Shown: positions 30,419 through 38,779 of the stretch, one piece after another
How the letters are laid out: each line of letters starts with the position of its first letter
Position numbering within the stretch: the first letter of the stretch is position 1
DNA from: Methanogenium cariaci JCM 10550
Lineage (GTDB): Archaea; Halobacteriota; Methanomicrobia; Methanomicrobiales; Methanomicrobiaceae
Reading direction: 5' to 3'
NCBI RefSeq assembly: GCF_001315945.1
Contig: NZ_BBBG01000001.1
Location: 248,001-312,000, forward strand
Length of the DNA: 64,000 bases
The notes under the pieces: model-generated
What the model saw: the letters and a program-made list of their open reading frames with translations, nothing else
The model's database searches: none
Told to the model about the DNA's origin: nothing
Translations under genes and position numbers: made by a program

Positions 30419-31188
30419 ATGGCATACACACCACAGTATGGTCCGGGCACATCCGTCGTCGCTGAGAACAGGCGCCGCCAGATGAACCCGAACGTCGAAC
30501 TTGACAAAGTTCGAGATGTAACTGATGAAGATGTTGTGCTGGTTCTCGGTCACCGCGCACCGGGCTCCGCATATCCAACTGCACACCCCCCCCACTCGCA
30601 GAGCAGCAGGAACCTGACTGCCCAATCCGCAAGATTGTCGAGCCAACCGAGGGTGCAAAGGCAGGCGACCGCGTCCGCTACATACAGTTTGTTGACTCTA
30701 TGTACAACGGTCCGTCCCAGCCATACCAGCGTACCTACGCAGAATGTTACCGCTTCCGTGGTATTGACCCAGGTACACTCTCCGGTCGTCAGATCGTCGA
30801 GTGCCGTGAGCGTGACCTTGAGTCCTACTCCAAGTGGCTCCTCGAGACCGAAATGTTCGAGCCCGCTCTTACCAGCATCCGTGGCGCAACTGTGCACGGA
30901 CACTCACTCCGTCTTGCAGAAGATGGCCTGATGTTCGACATGCTCCAGAGGTGTATTGTTGGTGACGAAGGTATCGTTACCTACGTGAAAGACCAGATTG
31001 GAGAGCCCCCCCTCGACCGTGCAGTCGCAGTCGGCAAGCCACTCGATGACGCATGGGCAAAAGCCCACTCGACCATCTTCCACTCACTCGTCGGTTCAGC
31101 ATACCGTGATGACGAGGAGTACATTGAATACATCGTCCGCATCCACTCGCTGAGAACAAAATACGGCTTCATGCCGGTTGAGGAGTGA
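30419..31188 (+). CDS. mcrG: Methyl-coenzyme M reductase subunit gamma
   Basis: About 256 residues. Starts [20 protein letters not shown], then [20 protein letters not shown]; an eight-C run at 30586-30593 shifts the frame, with the continuation [58 protein letters not shown] and [16 protein letters not shown]. The protein ends [11 protein letters not shown]. Together with McrA and McrB it forms the active-site funnel. Five bases before the mcrA ATG. Confidence 0.96.
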
Positions 31189-31193
31189 TTTTA

Positions 31194-32912
31194 ATGGCAA
31201 AAATAGAGAGATCACAGAAGCTTTTCCTTGACGCACTCAAAGAGAAGTTCCAGGGCCAGGATCCTGAGTCCGTAAAGACCACGTTCTACAACTTCAATGG
31301 TGTCCGCCAGTCTCCGCGTAAGCGCGAATTTATGGCTGCAGCAAAGGGCATTGAAATGGAACGTGGAATCTCCATGTATGATCCAGAGCACTGCCACCTT
31401 GGTGGACTGCCAATGGGTCAGAGACAGCTCATGACCTACGAAGTCTCCCAGTCCGGTGTCTTCGTAGAGGGTGATGACCTTCACTTCGTCAACAACGCTG
31501 CAATGCAGCAGATGTGGGATGACATCCGCCGTACTGTCGTTGTCGGCATGGATCTTGCACACGCAACACTCCAGAAACGTCTCGGTAAGGAAGTTACCCC
31601 TGAGACGATCAACGAATACCTCCACATCCTCAACCACGCAATGCCCGGTGCAGCAGTGGTTCAGGAACACATGGTCGAGACCCACCCGGGCCTTGTCGAT
31701 GACTGTTACGTGAAGGTCTTCACTGGCGACGACGCAATGGCAGATGACATTGAGCCACAGTTCCTGATCAACATCGACAAGCTCTTCACCTCCGAACAGG
31801 CAGAAGTCCTGAAAGAACAGGTCGGCAAGTCGATGTACCAGGCAATCCACATCCCGACCATTGTCTCCCGTACCTGTGACGGTGGAACCACCTCCAGATG
31901 GTCTGCTATGCAGATCGGTATGTCCTTCATCGCAGCATACAGAATGTGCGCTGGTGAAGCAGCAGTCGCTGACCTTTCGTTCGCCGCAAAGCACGCCGGT
32001 GTCTCACAGATGGCATCCATCCTTCCGGCACGCCGTGCCCGTGGTCCAAACGAACCCGGTGGAATCAAATTCGGTGTATTCTCCGATATTATTCAGGCAA
32101 ACCGGAAATACCCGAACGACCCCCCCGCACGTGCATCCCTTGAGGTTGTCGGTGCAGGTACCATGCTCTTCGACCAGATCTGGCTTGGTTCCTACATGTC
32201 CGGTGGTGTCGGTTTCACCCAGTATGCAACCGCAGCATACACCGATAACATCCTTGATGAGTACACCTACTACGGTATGGACTACCTGAAGGACAAGTAC
32301 GGCTTCGACTACTCCAACCCGGACCCCCCCGCAGCAACCATCACTCCAACTCAGGATGTCGTCAACGACCTTGCAACTGAGGTTAACCTCAATGCAATGG
32401 AACAGTACGAACAGTACCCAACCATGATGGAAGACCACTTCGGCGGGTCACAGCGTGCTGGTGTTATGGCAGCAGCCTGTGGTCTGACCTGTTCCATTGG
32501 TACCGGAAACTCCAATGCCGGTCTGAACGGATGGTATCTTTCCATGCTCATGCACAAGGAAGGATGGTCACGTCTTGGTTTCTTCGGATACGATCTTCAG
32601 GACCAGTGTGGTTCAGCAAACTCCCTCTCCATGGAGCCTGACCGCGGTCTGATGGGCGAACTCCGTGGACCAAACTATCCAAACTACGCAATGAATGTCG
32701 GTCACCAGGGAGAATACGCAGCTATCGTCGGTGGTGCGCACTACGGACGCGGCGACGCATTCTGCTTCGACCCACTTGTGAAGATCTGTTTCGCAGACCC
32801 CCCCTCACTTACATTCGACTTCTCCGAACCCCCCCGCCGCGAATTTGCGAAGGGTGCAATACGCGAGTTCAAGCCAGCAGGCGAGCGCTCACTGATCATA
32901 CCTGCAAGGTAA
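31194..32912 (+). CDS. mcrA: Methyl-coenzyme M reductase subunit alpha
   Basis: 572 residues. Carries the F430 axial Gln region and all sites of known modification: [10 protein letters not shown] (methyl-His), [13 protein letters not shown] (methyl-Arg), [10 protein letters not shown] (methyl-Gln site) and [17 protein letters not shown] (thioglycine and methyl-Cys). [20 protein letters not shown] is the standard diagnostic block. I chose ATG 31194 ([11 protein letters not shown]), which fits homologues, over one three codons upstream. Four C runs of seven insert an extra Pro each (NDPPAR, DPPAAT, ADPPSL, EPPRRE) without breaking the frame; since McrA is so conserved, these are the best calibrators of the run-length error. 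Confidence 0.98.
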
Positions 32913-33111: not shown

Positions 33112-34034
33112 ATGGAAGAAATACTATTTGGCATCGGTATTAGCGCTCTGGCTGGCGCTCTTGCCACTGTAGCTGGCGCTGCGGAGGACACTGAATCTGA
33201 TATCGGATCACAGGGTGACCCGAACTCACAGGTTCAGCTGGCTCCGCAGATGGGGTATATTCACAGGATCTACAATAAAGCAGTATCCGGTGAACCCCCC
33301 CTGCGTACGGTCTATGGGTGGCATTAGCTGCCGGAATTGCCTGGGCGTTGATGGCGATTCAGTACAATGCGATTCTTGCTCTCATCATTGGTTCTGCGGT
33401 CGCAGTCTTTGTGCAGGGCGTGTACGCAACGACTGCATATCTCGGTCGTACTGCAAGTCTCGCAAAATTTGAACAGCCGGTGTATATCGATATTTTAAAA
33501 TCGGTTACAACTGTGACTATGGCCCACGCATTCGTGGCGGTCTTCACTACTGTTACTATGTGTTTCCTTATCATCGAGGCTCTGGGACATCCGTTCCCGC
33601 TGCCACTGATGGGTATTGTATGGGGGGGAATCGCACTGGGAGCAGCAGGATCTGCAACTGGTAACCCGTTCTACGGGAAAGAACGCCAGTATCAGAAGTA
33701 CCCCCCCTTCGGTGCAGGGTTACCTATCTCCGCATCCGGTGACATCGTCCGGTATGCAGAGGCAGGACAGAGAAGTTCACTTGACAACGGATGGTTCACA
33801 TCCAAGGGAGCAGGTCCCGCATCCGGTATCTGTTTCGGTCTTATCGTGTTCTTCGAATTATGGCGTACCATTCTCTTCGAGCCATTCGCAGCAGGCTGGG
33901 GGGGAGCAGTGATCGCCGGTGCCGTAATCATCATCGTCTTCATGGTCATCGACCGCATGGTTGAGTCATGGGCACGTAAGACCTACGGTCCATATACTAC
34001 AGAAACAGCAACAGAAGAGGAGGCAACAGCATGA
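33112..34034 (+). CDS. mtrE: Tetrahydromethanopterin S-methyltransferase subunit E
   Basis: About 307 residues, multi-pass membrane subunit of the sodium-pumping Mtr complex. N-terminal MEEILFGIGISALAGALATV, SQVQLAPQMGYIHRIYNKAV; a C7 run at 33295-33301 shifts the frame, and with five C the reading continues AYGLWVALAAGIAWALMAIQ. Several hydrophobic helices follow, with GNPFYGKERQYQKYPPFGAG as a cytoplasmic loop. Overlaps mtrD by ATGA. Confidence 0.95.
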
Positions 34035-34863
34035 GTGCATTAGGTGGCGGTTCAGCTGGTGGAGAAGGTATTAACCCGGCTGCATCAGTGATCGCACTGG
34101 TTATCGTACTTGCATCAGTTGGTATTGCCTATGTAGTCTACCCAGTAGCACTCATTCCTCTCATCGGCGTCATCATCGGCGGCGTGCTCATCTCCTTTGG
34201 TGTGCACTTCGTGCCGGTCGGTGGTGCACCCGCAGCAATGGGTCAGGCACCCGGTATCGCTACCGGTGTGGCAATGCTCGCTGCCGGTGGTGGCCTTGCA
34301 GGTCTCTTCGGAGGCGCATGGGCTGCTGAGATGGGCCTCTGGGTCGCACTCGGCGCAGGCGCAATCGGCGGCGGTCTCCTGATGGCAATTACCTGTCTGA
34401 TGGTGAACGTTGTCTACGTGTATGCAATGGGTATCCCCCCCGCTGCATCCGGAAAGGTCGAGAAAGACCCCATTACCGGTGACACGTACGATGGATACAG
34501 ATCTCAGGGAACTGAGGGTCACGGACTTCCGTTCATCTCCTATGTTGGTGGTGTAATTGGTGGTATCCTCGCCGGTCTCGGCGGTACGCTCATCTACCTT
34601 GAACTTCTCGAAGTCTACCAGCAGGCACTTCCAAATGTCCTCGGCATGACTCCTGAAGCATGGCTACGCTTGCCGTATCCCTTGCAGGTATCTTTGCAGT
34701 CGGTATGTTCCTTGTAGCAGCAGTACTTACCGCGTACAACATTACCGGTACCATCGAAGGTCCTCACGACCCGAAGTTCAAGAGATGGCCCCGCGCAGTA
34801 ATCGGATCGTCTGCAGCATGTGCAGCCTGCGGTCTTGTTGCTATTCTTCTGGTGGTAATCTGA
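34031..34863 (+). CDS. mtrD: Tetrahydromethanopterin S-methyltransferase subunit D
   Basis: About 277 residues with six or more hydrophobic helices; very Gly/Ala rich (SALGGGSAGGEGINPAAS, GVAMLAAGGGLAGLFGG). Loop VEKDPITGDTYDGYRSQGTE and C-terminal helix AVSLAGIFAVGMFLVAAVL are typical MtrD. An apparent one- or two-base indel near 34660-34668, outside any long run, moves the last 65 residues to another frame. One C run adds a Pro (GIPPAAS). Note the CCCC in the KDPITG loop, which is not extended. Confidence 0.93.
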
Positions 34864-34874
34864 GGTGTTAGAGA

Positions 34875-35749
34875 ATGTCAGTTAAAATTGAAGCATCAGA
34901 AGGCGGAATGGACCACAATGCCATGCTTGGCATCGGCTCATTGGCGCACTGGTCTGTATCTATCTGGTCTACCTCAACACCCTGATGTCAACCGAAGTCT
35001 TCGCCTTCTTTGGCGGGATTGCGGCTATCATCGCACTCTGGTGGGGGGGTACTGACTCAATCAAGAACCTCTGCAGCTACGGTCTCGGTACCGGTGTACC
35101 GTCCGCAGGTATGATCGCGCTTGGTTCCGGTGTTGTTGCCATGCTCTTTGCAACAAAACTCGCAGGAATCAGTCCGCTTCTTGTACCTGTCGGCTGTGTT
35201 GTTGTTGCAGCAATCCTCGGAGCAATCCTCGGATTCATTTCAGACAAGGTTCTCAACATGAACATCCCGGTGATGACCCGCATGATTGCAGAGCTTACCG
35301 TTGTCGGTTCACTGACAATGCTCGGCTTCACTGCAATGGTTGCAGGTACCTTCTCGTTCGGAGATCTCATCACCAGCACAACATCCGTTCTTGGTGTTGA
35401 ACTTGCAAGCTACGCATCATCCGTTATTGGCGGATGTGTGCTCGCAACAATCTTCATGCTCGGTGCAATCGCAATCCAGCACCCCCCCTTCAATGCATGT
35501 CTCGGCCCCCCCAACGAATCATGGGACCGCACACAGATGTGCGCAATTGAATGCGGTGCTTTGAGCATGATCGGCGTTGCAATCATGTCACTTGCATTCC
35601 TTTCGCTTCCGGCAGTCGTCATCTCATTTGTTATTTCCATCATCCTCTGGGGGGGATGGTCCTACAGTGAGTTGATCAAGCTCTCGAAGCGTGATGCATT
35701 TGCATGGCTTGACTCGCAGCCTATCCGTGAAGTCGGAGGTGAACAGTAA
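34875..35749 (+). CDS. mtrC: Tetrahydromethanopterin S-methyltransferase subunit C
   Basis: About 291 residues, multi-pass membrane subunit that with MtrD and MtrE forms the ion-conducting globule. ATG at 34875 (MSVKIEASEGGMDHNAMLGI) is read in one frame to about 34935, where a single missing base shifts it; the continuation is LIGALVCIYLVYLNTLM, then GLGTGVPSAGMIALGSG, NMNIPVMTRMIAELTVVGS and NESWDRTQMCAIECGALSM. Two C runs add Pro (HPPFNACLGPPNES). TAATG overlap with mtrB. Confidence 0.93.
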
Positions 35750-36038
35750 TGGGATATATCCAGGTACTGCCTGAGTATGGTCTCGTCGCTGACCCTATGG
35801 TTGGACTCGTAACCACCGCAGGGGGGGCATCCCTCGGTCAGGTTGTTGAGCGTGTCGATAAACTCGACAAGGTTGCTGATGACATTGTTAACATGCTCTC
35901 GGGAGAAGGAGACTTTATGGTGTCGTTCCCCCCCGGGAGAGGCGAAGCCTGCTTTATGCGGGTGGTGTCACAGCAATGTGGTATGGTCTTGCGGTCGGAC
36001 TTTTCATCGCGGGGATAGTCGCGTTTGGATTCTTATGA
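35749..36038 (+). CDS. mtrB: Tetrahydromethanopterin S-methyltransferase subunit B
   Basis: About 96 residues. GYIQVLPEYGLVADPMVG is the conserved N-terminus, a helical stretch VVERVDKLDKVADDIVNML follows, and the C-terminal membrane anchor LLYAGGVTAMWYGLAVGLF with AGIVAFGFL is found after correction of a C7 run at 35930-35936 and an indel near 35950. Ends at TGA 36036-36038, 11 bases before mtrA. Confidence 0.88.
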
Positions 36039-36049
36039 GGTGATAAGAT

Positions 36050-36775
36050 ATGGCAAATAAGAAATCACCGGCCTCAGGCTGGCCAGTTATCCAGGGCGAT
36101 TACATCTCCGGCAGTGGAGAGAGCTGTGTTGCAGTCTGTTCATTTGGTTCTCACCTTGATGAACAGGGTATCTGTGACGCAGGCGCTGGTATCTGTGGTT
36201 CCTGTAAGACAGAGAACCTCGGTCTTGAGAAGCTGATTGCAAACACCATCTCAAATCCGAACATCCGTTTCATCATCTTCTGCGGAACTGAAGTGAAAGG
36301 GCACCTTTCTGCCCAGTCACTTAAGGCCCTGCACGAGAATGGTGTCGAGGGCGGTAAGATCGTCGGTTCCAATGGTGCTATTGCATTCATCGAGAACCTT
36401 GACGCAGCCGCCATCGAGCGCTTCCAGCAGCAGGTCGAGATCATCGACATCATGGAAAGCGAAGACATGGGTGCGATCACCGCAAAAATCAACGAATGTG
36501 CAGGGAAAGACCCCCGGCGCATTTGACGCAGACCCGATGGTCATCGAGGTCAGCGATGATGAAGGCGGTGCAGGAGAAGGTGCAGAGGCGTCGAAGCTGA
36601 GATGTCCGCTGAACTTGCTCTGATTCACGCCCGGATGAAGACCATCCAGATGATGGTCACCGATATGGGATACCGCAACCGCTACGCAGCGGGTGTGTAT
36701 TCCGGTAAAGTTGAGGGAGTAATGATCGGACTGATCATATCGTTTGTCCTTTTGGGCTTCCTTCTGATGGGGTGA
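36050..36775 (+). CDS. mtrA: Tetrahydromethanopterin S-methyltransferase subunit A (complete, membrane anchored)
   Basis: About 242 residues. Carries the corrinoid (factor III) that takes the methyl group from methyl-tetrahydromethanopterin and gives it to coenzyme M. Soluble domain: [58 protein letters not shown]. After AGKDP a fifth C (36510-36514) shifts the frame; the almost identical copy at 36988 reads DPGAF without a shift and serves as control. A second indel near 36590 lies outside a long run. The C-terminal part [16 protein letters not shown] then [20 protein letters not shown] is the usual MtrA membrane anchor. Confidence 0.94.
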
Positions 36776-36780
36776 TATAA

Positions 36781-36986
36781 ATGACAGATGAAAAACAACC
36801 CACAACAATCCGTACTGCAGCGATTGATGGCATGATGTCTGATATCACGTACAAAGGCAGATTCTTGCACGTACCAACAAGCTTGACTCTGCAATTAGTG
36901 CCAGCGGTATCATCGGATTTTCTATCGGTCTGGTCATTTCTATCGTCCTTGTGATGGTACCTGTATTATTAATGGGAGGTATCTGA
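36781..36986 (+). CDS. mtrF: Tetrahydromethanopterin S-methyltransferase subunit F
   Basis: About 68 residues. Starts [20 protein letters not shown]; an indel near 36858, outside any long run, shifts the frame, and the continuation [19 protein letters not shown] then [20 protein letters not shown] ends with a single membrane helix. This is the typical MtrF shape, related to the C-terminus of MtrA. It is flanked by the two mtrA copies. Confidence 0.87.
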
Positions 36987-36987
36987 A

Positions 36988-37728
36988 ATGGCAGATAAGA
37001 AATCCCCGGCCTCAGGCTGGCCAGTTATCCAGGGCGATTACATCTCCGGCAGTGGAGAGAGCTGTGTTGCAGTCTGTTCATTTGGTTCCCACCTTGACGA
37101 ACAGGGTATCTGTGACGCAGGCGCTGGTATCTGTGGTTCCTGTAAGACAGAGAACCTCGGTCTTGAGAAGCTGATTGCAAACACCATCTCAAATCCGAAC
37201 ATCCGTTTCATCATCTTCTGCGGAACTGAAGTGAAAGGGCATCTTTCTGCCCAGTCACTGAAGGCCCTGCACGAGAATGGTGTCGAGGGCGGTAAGATCG
37301 TCGGTTCCAATGGTGCTATCGCATTTATCGAGAACCTTGACGCAGCCGCCATCGAGCGCTTCCAGCAGCAGGTCGAGATCATCGACATCATGGAAAGCGA
37401 AGACATGGGCGCGATCACCGCAAAGATCAACGAATGTGCAGGGAAAGATCCCGGTGCATTCGGCGCAGACCCGATGGTCATCGAGGTCAGCGATGATGAA
37501 GGCGGTGCCGGCGGTGAAGTGGCTGCCACAGCAAACCCCCAGTTCCTCGAAGTTGAGGCAAAACTCAATGCTATCGAGACAAAACTGGAGTTTGCTGATG
37601 CAGAACTTGCTCAGCGCTATGGCCGTAAGGTCGGCCGTGACATAGGTATTCTCTATGGCCTTGTCGCTGGTCTGATTGTATTCATGATGTTATTGGTATT
37701 ACTCCCCAAGTTAGGCGGATTTATCTGA
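36988..37728 (+). CDS. MtrA-MtrG fusion: second corrinoid domain joined to subunit G
   Basis: 246 residues, frame intact. Residues 1 to about 178 repeat MtrA of 36050-36775 with only about two visible differences (N3D and one D to G near 164); the DNA is also nearly identical. The MtrA anchor is replaced by [20 protein letters not shown], then [20 protein letters not shown] and a membrane helix [18 protein letters not shown], which is subunit MtrG. No separate mtrG exists in the operon (E-D-C-B-A-F-AG-H), so the fusion must supply MtrG. Each complex could therefore carry extra corrinoid domains. Confidence 0.9.
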
Positions 37729-37741
37729 GGAGGGAGAAAAA

Positions 37742-38779
37742 ATGTTCAAATTTGAGAAAGAACAGACGGTACACGACTTCAACGGTACCAAGATAGGCGG
37801 GCAGCCCGGAGAATATCCACGGGTTCTCGGTGCATCCATCTTCTATAACAAGCACGAGACTGTTATTGATGATGAGAAGGGCATAATTGACAAGGATCGC
37901 GCAGAGGCGCTCTGGAACAGGTGTCAGGAACTTTCTGACCAGACAGGTGTAAAACACTTTATCCAGATCATCTCTGAATCAGGAGAGGCATTTGAGAACT
38001 ACTTCTCATGGTTTGACTCCATTGACAGCAAGACAGCATTCCTGATGGACTCGTCCATGCCACCGGCACTTGCTCACGCATGTGAGTATGTGACCGAGGT
38101 CGGACTGGCAGACCGTGCTATCTACAACTCTATCAATGGTTCAATCCTCCCGGAGAACATTGAGGCACTCAAGAACAGTGACGTTAACGCAGCTATTGTG
38201 CTTGCATTCAACCCTGGCGACCCAACCGTAAAGGGCCGTGAGGCAGTGCTCGCAGAGGGTGGCGTCGCTGGTCAGGAGAAGTCCATGCTTGCAATTGCAG
38301 AAGAGTGCGGCATTACCCGCCCTATCCTCGATACCGCAGCAACACCGCTCGGTCTCGGGTCAGGCGGTTCATTCCGTGAGATTCTTGCATGCAAGGCAAT
38401 TCATGGTCTCCCAACCGGTGGTGCATACCACAACATGACTGTCTCCTGGACATGGCTCAAACGCTGGAGAGGAACCAAAAAGAATCCATCAGTGCTTGCA
38501 AAGCAGTATGAGGGTAAGAAAGTTCTCCTTGAGCAGATGGGACATCACCACTTTGGTGGTATGGAAGGTATCAAGCAGGCCGCATGGTCAGCGCCTGATA
38601 TCGGCTGTAACATCATGGCAGCAACCCTTGGTGCAGACCTTATCATGTACGGACCTATCGAGAACTGTGAAGCAGCATCCACTGCTATCGCATTCACCGA
38701 TGTTGTCCTTGCAGAAGCAGCAAAAGAACTTGGTGTGGATGTCGCAACCGATGACCACCCGCTCTTCAAGCTGGTCTAA
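37742..38779 (+). CDS. mtrH: Tetrahydromethanopterin S-methyltransferase subunit H
   Basis: 345 residues. Catalyses methyl transfer from methyl-tetrahydromethanopterin to the corrinoid of MtrA; TIM-barrel related to MetH-type methyltransferases. MFKFEKEQTVHDFNGTKIGG, FLMDSSMPPALAHACEYVTE, NAAIVLAFNPGDPTVKGRE, DTAATPLGLGSGGSFREI and MAATLGADLIMYGPIENCE are typical. The frame is intact and the gene contains no long G/C run. Good ribosome site gaggaggg. Last gene of the operon; an eight-T tract follows. Confidence 0.96.
   Translation: MFKFEKEQTVHDFNGTKIGGQPGEYPRVLGASIFYNKHETVIDDEKGIIDKDRAEALWNRCQELSDQTGVKHFIQIISESGEAFENYFSWFDSIDSKTAFLMDSSMPPALAHACEYVTEVGLADRAIYNSINGSILPENIEALKNSDVNAAIVLAFNPGDPTVKGREAVLAEGGVAGQEKSMLAIAEECGITRPILDTAATPLGLGSGGSFREILACKAIHGLPTGGAYHNMTVSWTWLKRWRGTKKNPSVLAKQYEGKKVLLEQMGHHHFGGMEGIKQAAWSAPDIGCNIMAATLGADLIMYGPIENCEAASTAIAFTDVVLAEAAKELGVDVATDDHPLFKLV

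Follow-up and report, generated by a model that had tools for sequence, protein, structure and literature searches.

How many corrinoid domains does the Mtr complex carry when its operon encodes two? Mtr is the N5-methyl-H4MPT:coenzyme M methyltransferase and carries out the sodium-pumping step of CO2-reducing methanogenesis. In the window (the whole 64-kb stretch of Methanogenium cariaci JCM 10550 DNA analysed here), the initial annotation described an operon of the order mtrE-D-C-B-A-F-(A-G)-H, in which a second copy of mtrA is fused to mtrG. Pfam matches confirm this order for MtrE, D, C, B and H, and reading frames do so for mtrF. Matches and frames together place the fusion gene downstream of mtrA-1 and mtrF and ahead of mtrH. 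The fusion gene is almost certainly mtrA-2b, which encodes the MtrA-MtrG fusion subunit of Mtr found throughout the order Methanomicrobiales. The features of the operon, all on the forward (+) strand, are:

33112-36036, +: mtrE, mtrD, mtrC and mtrB, partly broken by assembly indels (Pfam)
36050-36775, +: mtrA-1, a normal MtrA with its own C-terminal membrane helix (MtrA match; reading frames)
36781-36986, +: mtrF, 68 aa, frameshifted in the assembly at about 36858 (reading frames; same-genus relative)
36988-37728, +: mtrA-2b, the MtrA-MtrG fusion gene, 246 aa (intact ORF; Pfam PF04208 and PF04210; NCBIfam TIGR01111 and TIGR01149)
36988-37491, +: MtrA corrinoid domain of the fusion, residues 1-168, homogenised with mtrA-1 (DNA and codon identity)
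37492-37533, +: linker rich in D, E, G and A, about residues 169-182 (span across genomes; low-confidence model)
37534-37725, +: MtrG part with a long stalk and membrane helix, residues 183-246 (Pfam; alignment with stand-alone MtrG)
37742-38779, +: mtrH, the methyl-H4MPT methyltransferase subunit (Pfam MtrH, 7e-98)

The mcrA gene (methyl-CoM reductase alpha, 31185-32912) adjoins the mtr operon on its upstream side, which puts genes for the final two methanogenesis steps next to each other.

Domain structure of the fusion protein

Are both halves of the fusion complete? The frame is intact over its 246 codons. Pfam recognises MtrA at residues 4-172 (2.8e-80, 268 bits) and MtrG at residues 183-237 (7.3e-22, 78 bits; profile positions 9-63), and the NCBIfam models for MtrA and MtrG both score above their cut-offs on this one protein. 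An alignment with stand-alone MtrG shows that the first 20 or so residues of the latter coincide with the linker of the fusion, and that MtrG is essentially whole. The corrinoid domain and the membrane part of MtrG are complete, as had been claimed from the open reading frame. An AlphaFold single-chain model of the fusion, based on 12 sequences, is of low confidence (mean pLDDT 54) and is only consistent with a Rossmann-like domain, a loose linker, and a long helix.

The assembled genome contains exactly two MtrA matches, both in the mtr operon. The initial annotation had also noted the absence of a separate mtrG, and this holds for the assembled genome, which may be incomplete: its sole MtrG match is the fusion.

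Could the two halves nevertheless be separated in the cell? Cleavage of the fusion, or translation from an internal start, would yield free MtrG and a soluble corrinoid domain and would leave the stoichiometry normal; the loose, low-complexity linker is in keeping with such a process. However, across the 83 genomes compared, the frame stays fused in every one and the linker spans 16-19 residues. In-frame ATG, GTG or TTG codons occur in the linker region of only 12 of these genomes, at scattered positions, and a conserved internal start from which free MtrG could be made was not found among them. The lack of conservation argues against an internal start as the source of free MtrG, and cleavage or internal translation taken together is very improbable.

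Errors in the assembly

The neighbouring gene mtrA-1 is not intact in the assembly. One C too many at about 36515 and one base too few at about 36587 disrupt its frame, which stops at 36526; the C-terminal membrane helix can be read in another frame, ending at 36775. Relative to a same-genus relative, mtrF lacks a G at about 36858, and there are further indels in mtrB at 35950 and in segments near 34659 and 34937. These frameshifts of mtrA-1, mtrF, and other genes had been missed in the initial annotation.

Is mtrA-1 a pseudogene, or is the assembly at fault? The assembly has a systematic defect: G or C runs with a length of exactly seven number 188 in the window. In five further samples of the genome there are 24-36 such runs per 10 kb, and two same-genus genomes have 0-1.5 per 10 kb. 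Runs of four G or C are depleted in the assembly, and runs of A or T show nothing unusual. Within the mtr operon, all of the seven-long runs line up with three or four bases of the same kind in a relative (G037); they always represent three additional bases and so remain in frame. Examples are found at 33902, 34439, 35047, 35486, 35510, 35653, 35825, and 35932, and single-base indels in other short runs accompany them. The completeness of the genome is estimated at 59%, which fits the presence of many broken genes.

Since the genes are intact in same-genus relatives, the frameshifts in mtrA-1 and mtrF are attributed to sequencing or assembly errors. The indels are of the homopolymer type and lie in an error-rich assembly, and on these grounds a pseudogene is rejected; mtrA-1 is most likely intact in the organism itself. 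Claims of frameshifts, pseudogenes, or extra residues that are based on the assembly of Methanogenium cariaci JCM 10550 need care.

Distribution across Methanomicrobiales

The host belongs to the Methanomicrobiales and its closest named relative is Methanogenium marinum (95%). MtrA is present in 170 of 199 genomes of this order, mostly as two matches, and these lie about 940 bases apart among the pairs listed. From 90 extracted stretches, 82 had both copies fully covered and, with the window, gave 83 operons. The MtrA-MtrG arrangement was found in all 83, which represent six families of Methanomicrobiales; an N-terminal MtrA domain on MtrG is thus general among the fully covered operons, and the fusion is not the peculiarity of a single operon that it had been taken for. 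In the 82 genomes and the window, MtrA-1 has 239-246 aa and the fusion 240-248 aa, both starting with ATG (the MtrA-1 of the window being cut by the frameshift). The mtrA-1 gene is intact in 82/82 of the other genomes.

The 90 stretches were picked mostly because both MtrA copies matched, and a search for MtrG across the whole phylum is a less biased test. Among the matches listed in that search, MtrG frames are 233-319 aa long within the order and 73-143 aa outside it. Six MtrG frames within the order are short (G039, G059, G073, G076, G063, and G002), and all of them end at a contig end inside the gene; a further genome, G135, has a gap of Ns within mtrA-1. Contig breaks inside the gene are what short reads should produce at a near-identical repeat of 500 bases. 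For these genomes, a loss or reversal of the fusion is thereby rejected. A few genomes (e.g., G105 and G145) have no MtrG match among those listed. Outside the order, G233, G397, and G505 have two MtrG matches each.

This distribution also bears on whether a normal mtrG was wrongly joined to a copy of mtrA, a collapsed or misassembled repeat having been named at the outset as the finding that would overturn the fusion. The two copies in the window are 97.6% identical and the assembly has many homopolymer errors, which are circumstances that invite such a mistake. However, the same junction is present in the 82 other genomes, several of them assembled as single contigs, and in the eight genomes of an earlier study (PMC4632066). 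An assembly artefact is ruled out by these genomes, and its probability is negligible.

Gene conversion and selection

How have the two MtrA domains remained so similar? Both mtrA-1 and mtrA-2 of Methanomicrobiales were described by Wang et al. (2015, PMC4632066), who reported long-lasting gene conversion that homogenises mtrA-2 with mtrA-1. In 2018, mtrA came up once more when whole genomes were screened for concerted evolution (PMC6053082). In the genomes compared here, the MtrA-domain DNA of the two copies within a genome is 95.1% identical on average (97.6% in the window; five pairs are identical), and mtrA-1 has a mean DNA identity of 75.1% between genomes. The similarity has sharp boundaries: codon identity between the copies is about 0.8 at residues 163-168 and 0.09 at residues 175-180, collapsing after residue 168-170 or so, and ahead of the start codon most of the identity disappears within a few bases. 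In a tree of 42 genomes, the two copies of a genome are sisters in 34, those of the window among them, and a single clade of fused copies is rejected (p-AU 3.6e-48). These tests of identity, boundary, and tree topology reproduce the results of PMC4632066 on ten times more genomes.

Is the fused domain kept only because it is copied? In 13 of the 83 copy pairs dS exceeds 0.5, indicating no recent conversion, and the dN/dS of these pairs is about 0.05-0.12. The fused domain is therefore maintained by selection and not by copying alone, as judged from these substitution rates. The low dN/dS of pairs in which conversion has lapsed appears to be an addition to the picture given in PMC4632066. In L081, L085, L089, L088, L078, L109, and L071, the MtrA domains have diverged (dS 0.8-1.2; 84-89% amino-acid identity); these lineages are candidates for lapsed gene conversion, perhaps with a division of labour between the carriers. 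Diverged pairs differ at up to 16% of domain residues.

The axial histidine (His85), its glutamate partner (Glu55), and the GAI-F-EN motif do not vary in any of the 166 MtrA domains; their counterparts have been described as His84, Glu54, and a meander motif (PMC4915002). The low dN/dS, the invariant cobalt-ligand residues, and the lack of a conserved internal start, all added here to the published description, make it probable that both corrinoid domains are functional.

A proposed role in the Mtr complex

Where might a second corrinoid domain sit? In the solved complexes, MtrA, B, F, and G each contribute one helix to a stalk of threefold symmetry whose N-termini lie in the cytoplasm; within the membrane, the axis is lined by the helices of MtrG (PMC10998594). 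The MtrA domain is held on a flexible linker (PMC12774963); it is mobile and only partly resolved in the known structures (PMC10998594, PMC12774963). Three MtrH dimers dock on a sheet formed by the N-termini of the stalk subunits, and the N-termini of MtrG lie close to it (PMC10998594, PMC12774963). For M. mazei, binding of MtrA at the distal MtrH site is considered improbable from the structure (PMC12774963).

The fusion most likely had a single origin in an ancestor of the order, where a second MtrA corrinoid domain would have been joined to mtrG; gene conversion would then have kept the fused domain nearly identical to that of mtrA-1. The fusion would fill every MtrG position of the stalk, and each position would carry an extra corrinoid domain, given that no other MtrG is encoded and no internal start is conserved. 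Because the linker coincides with the N-terminus of MtrG, the extra domain would emerge at the level of the stalk where MtrH docks, tethered flexibly in the cytoplasm beside the MtrA-1 domain. It is plausible that a trimeric complex would contain three corrinoid domains from MtrA-1 and three from MtrA-G, a total equal to the six MtrH monomers of M. mazei Mtr. Both domains would accept methyl groups from MtrH and pass them to the CoM/Na+ site, giving more carriers per pump with unchanged chemistry. A doubling of corrinoid domains per complex, as anticipated in the initial annotation, is a reasonable proposal that is consistent with the sequence constraints.

This explanation of mtrA-2b as a whole is given a probability of about 75%. 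The part of it in which both domains carry methyl within one complex stands at somewhat better than even odds, and six MtrA domains might fail to all fit or to be loaded with cobamide. Alternatively, the fused domain could have a standby or structural role, with MtrA-1 alone shuttling methyl and the fused copy stabilising the stalk, reserving cobamide, or regulating MtrH. The mobility of the soluble MtrA domain, and the sterically awkward position of one MtrH site out of two in each dimer, would agree with such a role. However, the corrinoid-ligand residues are invariant, selection on both copies is strong, and homogenisation implies interchangeable function, making a standby role unlikely.

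A further point against the main explanation is that residue divergence of up to 16% makes some division of labour between the domains possible. It is tempting to go further and regard Methanomicrobiales Mtr as a machine with six corrinoids: MtrA-1 and MtrA-G would attend to different MtrH sites or take turns in the methyl relay, turnover or Na+ coupling would be altered, and conversion would keep the carriers interchangeable. This extension is tentative and rather less likely than not. A literature search found no protein-level data on any Methanomicrobiales Mtr, proteomics papers on the fused protein being judged by title. An entire methanogen order has mtr operons that code for two corrinoid domains each; the published structures used for comparison come from organisms that do not have the fusion.

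Comparison with known systems

The fusion is already known, having been published in 2015 as mtrA-2b from eight genomes (PMC4632066). The gene of Methanogenium cariaci shares with it the host order, the fusion itself, the placement between mtrF and mtrH, the partner mtrA-1, and the homogenisation of the MtrA domain. There is no difference in kind, and Methanogenium cariaci is one further genome.

A related arrangement is mtrA-2a, the MtrA-MtrF fusion of Methanococcales, also found in Methanocella arvoryzae (PMC4632066). It too places a second MtrA domain, homogenised with mtrA-1, on a membrane subunit. However, the partner is MtrF instead of MtrG, the gene lies between mtrA-1 and mtrG, and its origin is independent according to the same study.

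The canonical Mtr complexes of M. marburgensis (8q3v) and M. mazei (9qtq) are built from the same subunit families, and the parts of the fusion match their MtrA and MtrG chains. In these complexes, by contrast, MtrA and MtrG are separate chains and there is one corrinoid domain per protomer.
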